DNA of 64,000 nt from Candidatus Woesearchaeota archaeon (GTDB taxonomy: Archaea > Nanobdellota > Nanobdellia > Woesearchaeales > JACPJR01). The DNA is taken from NCBI GenBank assembly GCA_016187565.1, contig JACPJR010000005.1, positions 1 to 64,000 of the forward strand, given 5' to 3'. Below, in pieces: positions 5,682 through 51,545 of the stretch (position 1 is its first letter; each line of letters begins with the position of its first letter). The position numbers were made by a program, and so were the translations under genes. The notes under the pieces are model-generated. The model did not search any database. It was not told the DNA's origin and worked only from the letters and a program-made list of their open reading frames with translations.

Positions 5682-7505
5682 ATGTGCTCAATTGCTGGTT
5701 TTGATTTCTCAGATAAAACACTGATGGCCAAAATGAATAGAGTACTTTCCCATCGTGGCCCTGATGATCATGGAATATACATCGACGATAAGGTATCTCT
5801 CGGACATAATCGTCTCTCAATCATTGATATTTCAAAAGCAGGCCATCAACCTATGAGCAATGTTGATGAAACTGTCTGGATAGTCTTCAATGGAGAAATT
5901 TATAACTACCAAGAAATAAAAAAGCTGCTTGAAAAAAAGTACCGTTTTAGCTCAACCTCTGATACTGAAGTCATCATTTATGCATACATGGAATGGGGAT
6001 CGCGATGCGTTGAACGTTTTAATGGGATGTGGGCATTCTGTATTTATGATAAAAAAAAAGAATTATTTTTTTTGAGTAGAGACCGTATTGGAAAAAAACC
6101 ATTATACTATTATTTTGATGGAAATTGTTTTATCTTTAGTTCAGAGCTCAAAGGAATACTCGCGCATGATAATGTTCCTCGAAAAACGAATCCTGAAGCA
6201 GTTAGTCTGTACCTTACTATGGGATTTATTCCTGCGCCATCTACTATTTTCCAGAATATACGCAAGCTAGAGCGATCAGAGAATCTTCTTTATTCCCTCA
6301 AAGAGAAGTCCATAAAACGTGAGACTTATTATGAACTTCCTATTCCTCAACAGATATACGACAAAAAAAATCTGATTCAAGAAGGTGAAGAACTTCTTGA
6401 TGATGCTGTACGATTACGAAAGATTGCTGATGTTGATGTTGGCTCTTTTTTAAGTGGCGGTATAGATTCTTCACTCGTTTCCACACTATTGCGAAAATAC
6501 ACGACAACCAAGCTCCATACCTTCTCCATAGGATTTGAGAATCCGTTATATGATGAGACACCATACGCACAGCTTATGGCAGAACATCTACAAACAGAAC
6601 ACCACCATGATTACTTTACCGAAAAAGACTTTGAGCGAATTCTTGCTCGATATGCGAGGATTTACGATGAACCCTTTGCAGACATGGCTGCTTTTCCCAC
6701 AATCAAAGTTTCAGAGCTCGCACGTAAATTTGTCAAAGTTAGTTTAACGGGCGAAGGTGGCGATGAAATTTTTGGTGGTTATCCACTTTACCGGGCAGCT
6801 GCAAAAGTTGCTTTTGTTAAAAAGATTCCTCGAAACATCAGATCATCGTGCTCTTCTCTCCTCAACTCAATACAGACATTTCCAAGCATTAAAAAAGGAA
6901 TAGATCTTTCTCTTCAACCTCCTGAACGATTCTATCAGGGAATGTTTTGTCAAGAACATGATGACCCAACATGGTTCAACCAGAATTTTCCTCCAGTTCT
7001 CAAAAAATATCAGAATCTTACCGAAAGTGCAATGAAATTTGATCTTTTTTATTATACCGTTCCTGATAAATTCAATGTCAAAGCAGATCGGGCAGGAATG
7101 GCAAATGGATTAGAAATACGATGCCCTTTACTGGATTATCGACTTTTCTCGTACAGTGCAAAGATTCCTACGACTTACAAGGTTGATATATTCCATACAA
7201 AAAAGCTTATGAAAGAAATTGTACAGAAAGTCCTTCCTCGAAAGATAATCACGAAAAAAAAGAAAGGATTTACACCACCTGTATTTGAATGGATGACAAC
7301 AACTTATAGCAATCTTGTAGAAGAGGCTATGGATAATATAGCACAGTACTCTGTTCTGTCAAAAGATAACATGAGTCAACAACTTGTTCAGGAATATCGC
7401 AGTGCATTCATAAAAAAAAGGCTGAATATGTATCAACGAGACAAAATCTATCGTCTTTTTATTTTAGATAACTGGACAAAAGAGTGGTTACACCATAATG
7501 AGTAG
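5682..7505 (+). CDS. asnB: Asparagine synthetase-like glutamine-dependent amidotransferase (first copy)
   Basis: About 607 residues starting MCSIAGF, so that Cys2 is the exposed nucleophile of the class II glutaminase domain. Conserved LSHRGPDDHG, HNRLSIIDIS and VFNGEIYNY follow. The C-terminal synthetase domain has the PP-loop SFLSGGIDSSLVS and SLTGEGGDEIFGGYPLY. An upstream in-frame start would bury the catalytic Cys, and GAGAGG lies just before the chosen ATG. In surface-glycan loci such proteins often amidate uronic acids rather than aspartate, which fits the neighbours. A second copy lies at 20.6-22.6 kb. Confidence 0.92.
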   Translation: MCSIAGFDFSDKTLMAKMNRVLSHRGPDDHGIYIDDKVSLGHNRLSIIDISKAGHQPMSNVDETVWIVFNGEIYNYQEIKKLLEKKYRFSSTSDTEVIIYAYMEWGSRCVERFNGMWAFCIYDKKKELFFLSRDRIGKKPLYYYFDGNCFIFSSELKGILAHDNVPRKTNPEAVSLYLTMGFIPAPSTIFQNIRKLERSENLLYSLKEKSIKRETYYELPIPQQIYDKKNLIQEGEELLDDAVRLRKIADVDVGSFLSGGIDSSLVSTLLRKYTTTKLHTFSIGFENPLYDETPYAQLMAEHLQTEHHHDYFTEKDFERILARYARIYDEPFADMAAFPTIKVSELARKFVKVSLTGEGGDEIFGGYPLYRAAAKVAFVKKIPRNIRSSCSSLLNSIQTFPSIKKGIDLSLQPPERFYQGMFCQEHDDPTWFNQNFPPVLKKYQNLTESAMKFDLFYYTVPDKFNVKADRAGMANGLEIRCPLLDYRLFSYSAKIPTTYKVDIFHTKKLMKEIVQKVLPRKIITKKKKGFTPPVFEWMTTTYSNLVEEAMDNIAQYSVLSKDNMSQQLVQEYRSAFIKKRLNMYQRDKIYRLFILDNWTKEWLHHNE

Positions 7506-7536: not shown

Positions 7537-9045
7537 ATGATGAGTTATACCCAAAAAGCAATTAAGGGAATCATGGCTGTATCCTTGTCCACCTTTCTTT
7601 CTGGCGTTTTTGGCTATCTTGCACGAATTCTTTTAGCACGAAGCCTTACTACTGCAGAGCTTGGCCTTTTTTATTCCCTGTTTACCGTATTAATGTTTAT
7701 TCTCATCTTTGTTGACATGGGATACAGTACTGCCATTGTCAAGCATATTGCGCAAAATATCACTGAGAAAAAAAAGGAGATGGGTGGAGCTATTCGTATT
7801 GTCATGGGCATCCAGTTAGGAATAGCGCTCATTATTGGAACAACCCTGATTATTAGTGCAGACTGGCAAGCTGCACATTACTTTCACGATCCTTCAGTAA
7901 TAGTTCCACTTAAAATTTTTGTTGGTATCCTCATTATTAAGGTATTAATCAATTTCATTCCGAGTATTTTTGCAGGATTACAGTATATGGGTATAGTGAG
8001 TGTTCTCCGCTTTCTTGACAGGTTTCTCTTTCTCATGCTGGTCTATGTGCTCCTTCTCCTTGGATTAGAAAAAAGTACCCTTCTTCCAACGTATGCTTAT
8101 TTTATTACCGTAGCTATCCTCCTCGTTGTTCAACTCATCTTATTGCACAAGTACAAACTTATTCCTCTAATTACGCAATCGATCCGTTCTACAAGAAAAG
8201 AATTTTTCTCGTTGAGTCATTTTGCTTTTTTTTCAATGTTTACTGCAGTTGGTGGAATAATTATCGGTTATATTGATACCTTGATGTTAACCTATTTTGT
8301 ACCTATGAGTGATGTTGGTATCTATAATACTGTTCTTCCTACGGTTTTAATTCTCTCAACAACCGCAACAGCCATTAGCACGGTTTTCTTTCCGATGGTA
8401 TCAGAACTTTGGGCAAAAAAAGACCTTAACAGAATCACCTGGGGAATTGTAAAGCTCTATAACTATTCCTTCTGGATAATGGTCCCCTTAGGAATGATCA
8501 TGTTCATCTTTCCACAAGAGATCATTCTCTTACTCTTTGGATCTGATTATCTTTCAGGAGTACGAGCAATGCAAATCTTAGCTATCGGAGCATTAGTTTT
8601 GAGCTTAAATGCCATTAATCAAGCAAGCCTTAATGGATTAGGAAAACCAGAAAAAATAACCAAGATTTATGTTATTGCAGCACTCTTTAACTTTTTCGGT
8701 AATCTTCTTCTTATTCCACGCTATGGTATTGTTGGTGCAGCAGTTACCACAACGATAAGTTATTTCCTGATTTTAATACTCTCAACATATATGCTCTACC
8801 GAGTCATTCCGTTTAGTAATCAATTCTGGCATTCTTGGATAAAAACTCTTATTGCCGGTGTATTGTTTATTGGTATTGTATCCTTCTTAAAATACTATTT
8901 AACGCTGAATATGTACGCCGAAGCTCTGATTACTATTACCGTAGCCGGTATAGGATATCTTGTTATCACGCATCTTTTCAAGATATGGAATTTGCAAGAG
9001 TTACGATCAACCATTGCTCTGATAACGAGAAAAAAGAATGCCTAA
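7537..9045 (+). CDS. Polysaccharide flippase of the MOP superfamily (Wzx-like)
   Basis: 502 residues with 12-14 predicted hydrophobic segments and the family start AVSLSTFLSGVFGYLARILL followed by RSLTTAELGLFYSLFTV, typical of Wzx/RfbX membrane proteins that flip lipid-linked oligosaccharides. Lys and Arg runs sit in the inter-helix loops. A strong GGAGG precedes the ATG by about 6 nt. It is the last gene of the + strand operon; the next genes face it, with only 79 bases between. It would deliver the glycan assembled by this locus to the outer face, where AglB acts. Confidence 0.88.
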   Translation: MMSYTQKAIKGIMAVSLSTFLSGVFGYLARILLARSLTTAELGLFYSLFTVLMFILIFVDMGYSTAIVKHIAQNITEKKKEMGGAIRIVMGIQLGIALIIGTTLIISADWQAAHYFHDPSVIVPLKIFVGILIIKVLINFIPSIFAGLQYMGIVSVLRFLDRFLFLMLVYVLLLLGLEKSTLLPTYAYFITVAILLVVQLILLHKYKLIPLITQSIRSTRKEFFSLSHFAFFSMFTAVGGIIIGYIDTLMLTYFVPMSDVGIYNTVLPTVLILSTTATAISTVFFPMVSELWAKKDLNRITWGIVKLYNYSFWIMVPLGMIMFIFPQEIILLLFGSDYLSGVRAMQILAIGALVLSLNAINQASLNGLGKPEKITKIYVIAALFNFFGNLLLIPRYGIVGAAVTTTISYFLILILSTYMLYRVIPFSNQFWHSWIKTLIAGVLFIGIVSFLKYYLTLNMYAEALITITVAGIGYLVITHLFKIWNLQELRSTIALITRKKNA

Positions 9046-48466: not shown

Positions 48467-48614
48467 TGGCTTTAAAGAGGCTACCTATAAAAAACTTATC
48501 ATAAACAAATGACATACTCCCAAAATAAATCCAGCTAAAGCTGGGGGTTTCTCACGCAAACCATTTAACTTAATGTATGGTTCGCTCAACGAGAACCCCC
48601 TAATGATACAAGCA

Positions 48615-48636
48615 ACCACCTTAATCATGAGGTGGT
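48615..48636 (+). promoter_or_regulatory. Hairpin overlapping the TnpA ribosome site
   Basis: ACCACCT and AGGTGGT form a 7-bp stem whose right arm contains the Shine-Dalgarno GAGGTGG located 5 nt before the TnpA ATG. Folding would hide the ribosome site, as known for IS200 elements that keep transposase translation low. Confidence 0.55.
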
Positions 48637-48640
48637 CGCT

Positions 48641-49150
48641 ATGACTCAAAAACTATATCCGCACTTTAATCCAGAAGTACACAATATCAATTACCACATT
48701 ATTTGGATTCCAAAGTACAGAAAGCCCGTATTGACTGGAAAGGTTGTTGAAGTTCTAAAAGCAATCATTGAAGGGCAATGCCAAGAAATGAGCATTAATA
48801 ACCTCGCATTAGAGATTATGCCAGACCATCTGCATTTATTTGTAGGCGCAAAGCCGACAGTAACGCCTTTCAAGATAATCCATAAGTTAAAAGGCAACAC
48901 TTCAATTCAATTAAGGCGAGTATTTCCAGATTTGAAATACTTGGGATACAAACAGCATTTTGGAAAAGGATTTGATGCTCTCTGGGCAAGAGGTTACTAC
49001 TGTGGCTCTGCTGGTCATGTATCGCAAGAACAAGTTAAGCGTTACATTCAAGAGCAAATGGGCAAATCTGTTTTTGAGTATGATATTTACGGATGCCCAA
49101 CACACTTGAAAGGGCAGCTTAAAATCGGCGACTTTGCAAAGATAGATTAA
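48641..49150 (+). CDS. tnpA: IS200/IS605 Y1 transposase TnpA
   Basis: 169 residues, full length for TnpA. HUH motif H63-L-H65 in MPDHLHLFVG, catalytic Tyr135 in EQVKRYIQEQ, and HIIWIPKYRKPVL near the start, all conserved. TnpA moves single-strand DNA by recognising hairpins at its ends. Start at ATG behind GAGGTGG; the GTG nine bases earlier is within the ribosome site. Appears intact. Its closeness to the reverse transcriptase unit may be chance or a composite mobile unit. Confidence 0.93.
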   Translation: MTQKLYPHFNPEVHNINYHIIWIPKYRKPVLTGKVVEVLKAIIEGQCQEMSINNLALEIMPDHLHLFVGAKPTVTPFKIIHKLKGNTSIQLRRVFPDLKYLGYKQHFGKGFDALWARGYYCGSAGHVSQEQVKRYIQEQMGKSVFEYDIYGCPTHLKGQLKIGDFAKID

Positions 49151-49180
49151 CTACTTTGTAGTAGGTTTAAAAACGGAAGA

Positions 49181-49188
49181 TTTATAAA
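49181..49188 (+). promoter_or_regulatory. TATA box for the DGR target gene
   Basis: TTTATAAA, preceded by GGAAGA. Transcription would start near 49210 and include GGAGG (49220-49224), the ribosome site for the target gene. Confidence 0.5.
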
Positions 49189-49233
49189 CAAAAGCTTATT
49201 CCACCCTGATTATATTATTGGAGGCTTAACAAA

Positions 49234-49956
49234 ATGATTAATCATGAAATGGATGTCAATAAAACACAAGTAGGATTATACACTGTTACTTATGCCCTTT
49301 CTCAAAGACCTTTGGATGTTCAAGAGTTGGCATTTGCTGCTAAAGGGCTTCATACAATTTCCCCGGCAGAAAAAGGCCTTCTTATGATTGGTGTTGATGA
49401 TAGCCCATTTACACCTTATAGTAGAACTGACATGGATGTTATTTATGATAAAAGAGCTAAAGACCGAGTTGTTTTAGCCAGAGGCAAGCCAATAAGCCAA
49501 TTATTCTTATCTGATTTGGTTGATGCGCACAAACACGGCAGAGAGTTTGTTGTTCCAAAAGAAATGAGAGATGATGTTTATGATGCGATCGATACAATGC
49601 TGAATAATGGGATGGCATTTGCAACTACGCATGGCACTCATGAGACTCCTGCGAATAGGCTGGGAGAAGAAGGAATTACTAATTTCATGTATAGTGATCC
49701 ATCTTTGGGGATTAAGGCTGGAGACTTTGGCGCTTGGCTGGCTGAACGAAGAGATGTTCATAATGCCTTTTTTGATAGCCAAGAATATGCTAGACAGTTA
49801 GGCCCATATATAAATCGGCTGCGTCTTTTCAGTCCTGGCGGCGACTTCCTTGCCGGGGGCGGTTGCGGCAGGGATCTTTACAGCGGCGATGGTGCTTTCG
49901 GGGTGCGTTTTGAAAAAACCGCCGAAGGCGGCGAAAAAAGTTCGCCAAAAAAGTAA
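49234..49956 (+). CDS. DGR variable target protein
   Basis: 240 residues, no signal peptide or membrane helix seen. The first 165 residues are an unknown, mostly helical domain. Residues 166-226 fit the C-type-lectin-like fold of DGR targets: FGAWLAERRDVHNAFF, then the diversified segment (residues 195-224), ending GDGAFGVRFE, where GxR is typical. Variable positions are those with AAC/AAT in TR. The tail after VR is Lys/Ser-rich. A ribosome site GGAGG lies 9 nt before the ATG. Ligand unknown; location may be cytoplasmic, or export may use an unrecognised route. Confidence 0.88.
   Translation: MINHEMDVNKTQVGLYTVTYALSQRPLDVQELAFAAKGLHTISPAEKGLLMIGVDDSPFTPYSRTDMDVIYDKRAKDRVVLARGKPISQLFLSDLVDAHKHGREFVVPKEMRDDVYDAIDTMLNNGMAFATTHGTHETPANRLGEEGITNFMYSDPSLGIKAGDFGAWLAERRDVHNAFFDSQEYARQLGPYINRLRLFSPGGDFLAGGGCGRDLYSGDGAFGVRFEKTAEGGEKSSPKK
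49817..49905 (+). repeat. DGR variable repeat (VR)
   Basis: Begins with 21 nt identical to TR (GGCTGCGTCTTTTCAGTCCTG), ends with the shared ATGGTGCTTTCGG plus four bases. Between them 18 TR adenines are replaced (14 by G, 3 by T, 1 by C). One codon (GGT) is extra versus TR. Reads as residues 195-224 of the target. Confidence 0.92.
49919..49946 (+). other. Two GC-rich hairpins directly after VR
   Basis: CCGCC-GAA-GGCGG (49919-49931) and GGCGAA-AAAAG-TTCGCC (49930-49946), sharing two bases. They lie 14 nt downstream of VR inside the target's 3' coding end and have no counterpart after TR. In the Bordetella phage DGR, a hairpin/cruciform just past VR marks the recipient site, so this is a likely target-site signal. 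Confidence 0.6.
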
Positions 49957-49997
49957 GTATTAAATATGCATATTTCTATTGAACTTTTGCCTCGAGA

Positions 49998-50012
49998 CCA
50001 TATTGAATATGG
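49998..50012. repeat. Palindrome CCATATT-G-AATATGG
   Basis: Seven-base arms around a single G, 40 nt after the target stop codon. As RNA it would form a 5-bp stem with 5-nt loop. Confidence 0.4.
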
Positions 50013-50111
50013 TTAAGAAGGCCACACGCCCTTTTACTATGGCTTTGGCGACAAAGTTATAAAACCTTCAAATTGAACACGCTCCAATTTGATAAATTAC
50101 AGCAGGGACAC

Positions 50112-50127
50112 ATAACCTGAGGGTTAT
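50112..50127 (+). repeat. Hairpin ATAACC-TGAG-GGTTAT upstream of TR
   Basis: Perfect 6-bp stem with a 4-nt loop, about 45 nt before TR. It may be part of the structured TR RNA that DGR reverse transcriptases use. Confidence 0.45.
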
Positions 50128-50172
50128 ATGGCTGAACCTGTGGTGGGAACTGAGTAAATGGGCTAGCACTTG

Positions 50173-50258
50173 GGCTGCGTCTTTTCAGTCCTGACAACGA
50201 CTTCAATGCCAATGGCAGCAACAGGAATCTTAACAACAACAATGGTGCTTTCGGAATG
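50173..50258 (+). repeat. DGR template repeat (TR)
   Basis: 86 nt; non-coding by position. It is unusually rich in AAC/AAT (Asn) codons when read in the VR frame: ten AAC/AAT/GAC codons in a 17-codon stretch, the usual mark of DGR templates, since A-to-N changes at AAY avoid stops. Holds 25 adenines, 18 of which differ in VR. The frame is open into the reverse transcriptase. Confidence 0.93.
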
Positions 50259-50285
50259 GTCTTCATTCGAGGCTTACAATTTCCT

Positions 50286-51358
50286 ATGTTATCCTTAAAT
50301 CTTTATGGAAGATTATGCTCGTATGATAACCTTTTTCTTGCCTACAAAAAAGCTAGAAAGCATAAGACAACTAAAGATTATGTTGTTACATTCGAAAAAG
50401 GCCTGAAGGATAATCTTCTTTTGCTTCGTTCTGAATTACTATTTCATTCTTACAAGCCAAAGCCTCTGATAAATTTCATAGTCAGAGATCCAAAGACAAG
50501 GAAAATATCAAAGTCAGACTTTAGAGACAGGATAGTACATCATGCTTTATGCAATATTATTGAGCCGATTTTTGAAAAAGGCTTTATCTACGATTCATAT
50601 GCAAATAGGCTTGGTAAAGGAACGCTTATGGCAGTTGAAAGATTTGACTTCTTCAAGAGAAAGGCGAGCAATAATTATACATTTGATTGCTATGTTCTTA
50701 AAGCTGACATTAAAAAATATTTTGAAACAGTCAATCATGAAGTATTGCTTGGAATCATACAAAACAAAATCAACGACAAAAAAGTAATCTGGCTAATAAA
50801 GATGATATTAACTGCGGGGGGGGGGGGGGGGGGGGGGGGGGGAAAAATCTAACAAGCCAGTTTTTTGCGAATGTTTATCTGAATGAGCTGGACAAATATG
50901 TTAAGCATAATCTTAAAGCAAAATATTACATCAGATATGTGGATGATTTTGTTATCTTTGAATCAGATAAAGAAAAATTGCAATCTTATAAAGAGCAAAT
51001 TAACAAGTTCTTAAAAAGTAGGTTAAAGCTGGAATTGCACAAAGACAAATCAAAAATATTCAAATCGGGAAAATGCTTTAATTTTCTTGGCTTTAGGGTT
51101 TTTTACCATCACAAACTTCTCAAGAAGTCAAATCTAAGAAAGATGAGAAACACATATGCAAGTTTGAAAGAAAAATATAATTCAAAAGAAGGTGTTTATG
51201 ATGTTTTATACGATTTTTTTGAAGGATGGATTGCTTATGCAAAAAATGCAGATACTTTTAGGCAGAGAAAAAAGATTTTAGCAAAATTTGAACATGATTT
51301 TCCTGAGGAGATATCAACGAAAGAAATTAACAGATATCTCAAAATGCAGAAAAAATAG
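50286..51358 (+). CDS. DGR-type reverse transcriptase, interrupted at a poly-G tract
   Basis: Two halves in different frames. The first half (to 50815) holds the DGR/group-II-like head, FRDRIVHHALCNIIEPIFEK and the first catalytic Asp in KADIKKYFETVNHEVL (Asp141). The second half starts NLTSQFFANVYLNELDKY, then YVDD (50936-50947) and CFNFLGFRVFYHH. The missing piece is motif 4 (the GLPIG-type stretch before NLTSQ), and its place is taken by 27 G. Total length of about 357 codons equals a normal DGR enzyme. I start at MLSLNLYGRL since the ATG at 50256 lies within TR. It copies TR RNA with errors at adenine. Confidence 0.85.
50816..50842 (+). repeat. 27-nt poly-G tract
   Basis: An unbroken run of 27 G inside an A/T-rich gene, exactly at the conserved motif 4 of the reverse transcriptase. 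It shifts the frame by one base. Either a sequencing/assembly artefact (poly-G is a known dark-base artefact) or, less likely, a real slippery tract. Confidence 0.9.
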
Positions 51359-51383
51359 GATTATACCTCTTGCCTAAACACTG

Positions 51384-51432
51384 GAATGAGGCACGGCATT
51401 CATCCCACAAATAAATTTGTGGGTATTCTGCC
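51384..51432 (+). terminator. Hairpin after the reverse transcriptase; possible terminator or element end
   Basis: GAATG...CATTC (51384-51401) and an 8-9 bp stem CCCACAAA-TAAA-TTTGTGGG (51404-51423), with outer GGCA/TGCC. The loop TAAA equals that in the IS200 left-end hairpin. Could end the DGR transcript or mark the right end of a larger IS200/IS605-like unit. Confidence 0.45.
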
Positions 51433-51545
51433 TACGACTTTATAAAAACCCTAAACTTTAAGTAGGTTATCGTATTCCCTAACATCATATAGGTAATAAC
51501 GTTCATAACATTCAGGCTACAAGAATAAAAGACATTGGAGAGAAA

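Follow-up and report, generated by a model that had tools for sequence, protein, structure and literature searches.

A diversity-generating retroelement of a Woesearchaeota-like archaeon, very likely carried by an IS200/IS605-type transposon and with a probable repeat switch in its reverse transcriptase

Diversity-generating retroelements (DGRs) are known from DPANN archaea, as the original prediction for the locus described here had stated, and their targets lack recognizable domains (PMC4372165, Paul et al. 2015; PMC8144416, Roux et al. 2021, clade 5 archaea; PMC10907252, clade 5F). A passage of PMC10907252 cites Paul et al. 2017 for transposons that occur alongside the DGRs of CPR and DPANN. 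In cyanobacteria, IS200/IS605 transposases lie close to DGR targets and have been suggested to disperse them (PMC7517822). Simple-repeat contingency loci have been reviewed for bacterial pathogens, and archaeal phase-variable loci are still uncharted according to the same 2025 review (PMC11868660).

We analyzed a cassette in a 64,000-nucleotide stretch of DNA ("the window") from a Candidatus Woesearchaeota archaeon (GenBank assembly GCA_016187565.1, contig JACPJR010000005.1, positions 1 to 64,000). Like the DPANN DGRs, it combines A-specific TR/VR differences with a target gene upstream of TR and the reverse transcriptase (RT), an RT of the same family, a target without recognizable domains, and several cassettes per genome. 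With the BPP-1 phage DGR (bRT-Avd) it shares A mutagenesis, IMH/IMH*-like ends, and homology of the RT, for which the 8UB7 group gives the best match among solved structures. Unlike BPP-1, it has no avd ORF between VR and TR, it has a conserved structured RNA upstream of TR, and its TR overlaps the first possible RT start, with no TR-RT spacer. A Y1 TnpA, subterminal hairpins at both ends, and sharply defined ends are common to IS200/IS605 elements and the window element, in which, in contrast to the former, a complete DGR stands in place of tnpB; sister elements carry restriction, glycan, or membrane genes. Whereas the cyanobacterial case is one of proximity only, the ends here enclose tnpA, target, VR, TR, and RT as a unit. 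The RT gene also resembles the SSR contingency loci of bacterial pathogens, having a homopolymer or dinucleotide tract inside the gene, reading frames that vary between strains or species, and an otherwise intact coding sequence; it differs in its archaeal host and in that the gene putatively switched is a mutator.

The DGR RT family was found in 94 of 353 genomes of the order, so the window DGR itself is of a known kind. What is new is its packaging in a transposon and the repeat in its RT, both absent from the original prediction. The literature searched, to which Paul et al. 2017 does not belong, contained no description of either, nor any paper linking DGRs to simple-repeat phase variation. 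The features of the locus are as follows.

48508..51445, + strand: whole IS200/IS605-type element with DGR, 2,938 bp, AATGACATAC... to ...GACTTTATAA; ends from the comparison of ~20 elements
48531..48544, + strand: left-end hairpin CCAGCTAAAGCTGG; identical or nearly so across elements of many families; folds
48632..49150, + strand: TnpA, Y1 (HUH) transposase of the IS200/IS605 family; PF01797, E = 2.6e-34; NF033573, E = 3.7e-36; HUH motif HLH
49234..49956, + strand: DGR target gene, 240 aa; ORF with VR at its C terminus; homologues in four other genomes of the order
49817..49905, + strand: VR, by alignment; ends in IMH-like GGGGTG (49900-49905)
49990..50171, + strand: structured TR leader RNA, Rfam RT-16/RT-11; RF03019, 47.6 bits (cut-off 50); RF03106, 79.7 bits, E = 2.9e-16
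50173..50258, + strand: TR, by alignment; IMH*-like GGAATG at its end (50253-50258); shares bases with the first possible RT start
50256..50815, + strand (start at 50256 or 50286): 5' part of RT; RVT_1; 61% to the intact RT L016
50816..50842, + strand: frameshifting G27 run, located in the loop that precedes GMPLGN; no GMPLG codons in the assembly
50843..51358, + strand: 3' part of RT with YVDD; intact in its own frame
51404..51423, + strand: right-end hairpin CCCACAAATAAATTTGTGGG; directly 3' of RT; the same hairpin closes TnpA elements with DGRs and with other cargo

Software alignment of TR (86 nt) with VR (89 nt) reproduced exactly the positions and counts that had been obtained by hand for the original prediction. 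Eighteen of the 25 TR adenines are changed in VR (14 to G, 3 to T, and 1 to C) versus only 1 of the 61 other bases (C, 0/21; G, 0/19; T, 1/21), and VR contains a single 3-nt insertion relative to TR. This restriction to adenines (Fisher p = 5.4e-12) bears out the proposed signature of DGR adenine mutagenesis. The similarity also stayed above chance, as predicted: the local score of TR against the window upstream of it is 71, and the best of 50 shuffled TRs reaches 29, which rules out a fortuitous likeness. All seven VR adenines stand opposite TR adenines, and the direction is therefore from TR to VR. The GGAATG/GGGGTG pair of ends recurs in most related loci whose TR/VR pair is resolved there. 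The last two A-to-G changes thus look like the fixed IMH*/IMH difference and are best read as such rather than as random mutagenesis, which reduces true mutagenesis to ~16 of 23 adenines. Compared with its own TR, each of the two VRs of this genome (window 49817-49905; L004 ~6956-7045) contains a 3-nt insertion, and the two insertions differ in position.

Taken together, the A-restricted TR-to-VR differences, the position of VR at the 3' end of the target, the GGAATG/GGGGTG ends, the downstream RT, and a second, diverged cassette with an A-biased pair (see below) establish, at the level of sequence, that the window cassette is a DGR in a Woesearchaeota-like archaeon. The target protein gave no match in Pfam, NCBIfam, PHROG, or PDB, and its AlphaFold model (pLDDT of 53; below 50 in the VR region) is too low in confidence for its fold to be read. 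No avd ORF was found between target/VR and TR/RT among the window ORFs at the locus. All 20 related loci tested have an RT-16 match above the gathering score immediately upstream of TR. This suggests that the orphan Rfam family RT-16, at least here, represents the 5' portion of the transcript that contains the archaeal DGR template, a role that is likely for RT-16 and for RT-11 as well.

The element reads, from left to right, left-end hairpin, tnpA, target with VR, leader, TR, RT, and right-end hairpin. Its termini were defined by comparison with ~20 elements of the same TnpA family, among which conservation begins and ends exactly at these positions. The common left end is AATGACATACTCCC...CCAGCTAAAGCTGG, the common right end is CCCAC...GTGGGTATTC..CC...TTTATAA, and there is no similarity beyond them. 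The window TnpA is without ~19 residues near the N terminus that its relatives have. Genomes G200 and G342, which belong to other families of the order, carry TnpA, target, TR, and RT, with the right end ~60 nt or less from RT; in all, DGRs bracketed by these ends together with a TnpA of this family occur in at least three archaeal families. The right end also lies directly 3' of RT remnants in G073 (contig C53) and G342 (contig C41).

The same TnpA family is found with other cargo, including DUF2157 plus GDYXXLXY genes, a glycosyltransferase plus GH130, an Eco57I-type restriction-methylase, and BadF and DUF2229 genes. Judged from its ends and gene content, this is a cargo-carrying IS200/IS605 group in Woesearchaeota-like genomes. 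At loci L091-L098, L100, L102, and L103 of such genomes, the same TnpA and hairpin ends surround unrelated cargo (restriction-methylase, glycan, membrane, and CoA-activase-like genes). At L108:1586-3299, two tandem paralogues ending in VR-like sequence are followed by TR and an internally deleted RT, with the right-end hairpin last.

Copies of the element occupy two unrelated sites in the window's genome. At the locus corresponding to the G342 element, neither TnpA nor RT is present in four relatives of G342. Joining the G342 flanks yields an 84-aa ORF across the junction; an opposite-strand, spurious ORF crosses it too, so the restored ORF is only suggestive. When the flanks of the other elements were joined, no additional ORF was convincingly restored. 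Neither the G342 element nor the window element has a base-exact empty site among the genomes compared, in the latter case because its family consists of a single genome. Considered jointly with the identity of the DGR and the switching of its RT, the reading of this DGR as cargo of an IS200/IS605-type transposon seems to us very likely.

The genome of the window (1.94 Mb in 35 contigs) contains a second cassette, on contig C35, made up of a broken TnpA, target, VR, TR, and a truncated RT. Homology with the window cassette begins at the left end, spans TnpA, target, VR, and TR, and extends into RT. Identity is 72% over the main 1.8-kb aligned stretch; the left end and the right-end motif, which is common to both cassettes, match in separate stretches. 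In its TR/VR pair, 14 of 24 adenines are changed versus 1 of 60 other bases. Because the crossed pairs (TR1 with VR2 and TR2 with VR1) fit much more poorly than the cassettes' own pairs, each cassette appears to have been diversified from its own template. The decayed copy L004 bears similar short palindromic inserts, resembling a small MITE, in its right end and tnpA (~6360-6450 and ~8200-8310). A solo left end without TnpA is located on contig C26 (L020:2545-2590), and the relative L016 has a left end, a stop-containing TnpA, target, and VR, next to which TR and RT are absent.

An RT gene follows TR, as originally predicted, but it is split by the frame-changing run of 27 G (50816-50842) and so is not intact as assembled. 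NLTSQ (a GxxxSQ-type motif 4) and YVDD are present in this frameshifted copy, and GMPLG is missing before NLTSQ. Its best solved relative is the group 8UB7-8UBE (E = 1.6e-61, versus 1e-35 for group II intron RTs). The RTs of relatives likewise match best the PHROG RT and the PDB 8UB7 group, which we take to be the BPP-1 DGR RT. The loop reads ...ILANYSSVFAGKGMPLGNLTSQ in an intact relative and ...ILTAGGGGGGGGGKNLTSQ, with a change of frame, in the window. No other G run in the genome reaches a length of 16. Two runs of at least 9 G occur in total, the second being the conserved GPPPM stretch of a reductase-like gene, which rules out poly-G as a general habit of these genomes.

Lacking GMPLG, the window RT is off as assembled, whether switched, broken for good, or misassembled. 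Its allele has the longest run of all and may represent either a broken end state or a fault of assembly; by itself it is no evidence of a reversible switch and is unfit as a type example. Better ones are the in-frame G12 alleles of genomes G200 and G458.

We then read 104 RT loci of the order, a few of which represent the same gene twice, at the loop before GMPLGN. A simple repeat occupies this loop in 12 assessable RTs and in one cut by a contig end, as (G)7 to (G)27 or, in two sister RTs, as (CT)9 and (CT)11. Nine of the 12 are out of frame. Frameshifts affect 8 of the 11 full-length RTs that have a repeat and 3 of the 86 that have none (97 in total; Fisher p = 1.7e-7). In the repeat-bearing group, the frameshift always falls at the repeat and nowhere else, and no stops occur; in the 86 RTs without a repeat, none falls at this loop. 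When 371 genomes of the phylum were searched by pattern, 19 had a G run before GMPLGN, and the reversed-pattern control had 0 hits in the same 371. This search added 16 alleles, 14 of them out of frame, and a later one a poly-C allele at the same loop (G513, contig C19).

In total, 29 repeat alleles of this archaeal class, including that of the window, were found, as (G)n, (C)n, or (CT)n; five are in frame with the full GMPLGN and 24 are shifted. The 28 G and CT alleles distribute over the three frames as 5/11/12, such that both shifted frames are used, with the poly-C allele counted separately. The shifted share is above the two thirds expected of a free-running switch, a difference that is not significant (p = 0.11 for 23/28). 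Tract lengths come from one assembly per species, and short-read run lengths can be off by one. No close orthologue pairs (repeat-bearing, with high DNA identity) differing in tract length were found. In the RT tree of the order, most repeat genes fall in one clade, and well-supported branches force at least three changes. The runs are concentrated in the loop: of the 16 runs of at least 10 G in 18 repeat-bearing genomes (20.7 Mb), 13 are at this site. Glycine, proline, and serine/leucine encodings all occur, and it is thus the repeat that is common, not its peptide. The RT model places the repeat in a disordered loop (residues 183-193) with a helix on either side, where a length change that keeps the frame can be tolerated as far as the model indicates. 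The same repeat was not found in IMG/VR viral contigs, but with only four RTs of the motif class present there, this is a weak negative.

Other repeats were noted in and around these genes. In-frame G9 runs occur at a second, more C-terminal RT loop in two genomes (L166:688-696 and L168:638-646). Tracts of 8 to 14 C on the coding strand flank DGR RT genes, just before or after them (L058:1469-1478, L132:1480-1489, L055:1465-1478, L147:996-1003, and L174:423-433), and are possibly further switch sites. In many RTs, the bases immediately 3' of the G run mostly read CGAA (giving GnCGAA, or sometimes GCGAAGC). GCGAAGC is a very stable DNA mini-hairpin, and the GnCGAA flank may aid slippage.

Shifted RTs could be dying pseudogenes, in which decay begins at a loop that tolerates indels. 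The excess of out-of-frame genes, the C35 cassette of the same genome, which is truly decayed, and a stop in the 5' half of repeat allele L202 would fit this explanation, but the sequence beyond the repeat does not. The downstream halves of the shifted alleles contain 0 stops in 3498 codons and keep YVDD, and their differences by codon position (0.30/0.19/0.52) equal those of the upstream halves (0.31/0.18/0.52); by these measures they are under purifying selection. The resolved TR/VR pairs at shifted loci show 0 or 1 non-A changes (for example, 17/25 A and 0/64 non-A at L109, and 15/24 A and 0/66 non-A at L114), and such clean, A-only pairs suggest that those loci were active recently. With the further absence of frameshifts at this loop in the RTs without a repeat, we regard decay as improbable. 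Sequencing or assembly artefacts (two-colour poly-G, collapsed reads) are less probable still, even though the G27 run is the sole one of its size in the genome and replaces conserved codons, and the G342 and G308 contigs start at or near the repeat. Such errors would not account for runs that recur at one codon position in over 25 assemblies, for poly-C and (CT)n at the same loop, or for five in-frame alleles that retain GMPLGN, and runs of such length are otherwise nearly absent from these genomes. Programmed ribosomal or transcriptional slippage at the repeat, yielding full RT from shifted genes, would agree with the selection persisting on both RT halves and with the ability of polymerases to slip on long G or C runs. 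Yet +1 would be needed in 11 alleles and +2 in 12 or 13, and a ribosomal programme would need one fixed frame. This argument does not reach transcriptional slippage at a fixed length, which may occur; overall, we give the explanation little weight.

As to the transposon, TnpA might stand beside the DGR by accident and not mobilize it. In this order, neither TnpA nor element ends lie near most DGR RTs, and the left end on C26 stands alone. On the other hand, both ends flank the same gene order in the two copies of this genome and in G200 and G342, and the right end directly follows RT remnants in G073 and on contig C41 of G342, making a chance neighborhood unlikely.

Given the mixed frames, the intact and selected downstream halves, the clean A-only TR/VR pairs, and the concentration of runs in the loop, the repeat in the RT loop is probably a slippage (phase-variation) switch on the mutator. 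For the window, a DGR in an IS200/IS605-type transposon with a repeat-switched RT is the reading in which we have high confidence. With slightly less assurance, we consider it likely that a slippage switch evolved class-wide at one RT loop and was gained more than once, as (G)n, (C)n, and (CT)n, that hypermutation is phase variable (mostly off and rarely on), and that some of the mutators are transposon cargo. In the proposed mechanism, RT would copy TR RNA with errors at A, and the cDNA would then replace VR in the C-terminal region of the target. Replication slippage would alter the length of the repeat in RT, so that a minority of cells would have RT, and hence hypermutation, switched on, whereas in most it would be off. 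TnpA would recognize both subterminal hairpins of the element, and transposition would carry cassettes to new sites.

Packaging of target, VR, TR, and RT in a transposon would explain the spread of cassettes, and of stray targets without RT, between genomes. The idea of a switch can be tested with existing metagenome reads and, if true, would place this repeat among the first contingency loci shown in archaea. How DGRs escape constant, costly mutagenesis is not well understood; if the switch is real, a repeat that flips the reading frame of RT would be the answer for a whole archaeal class.
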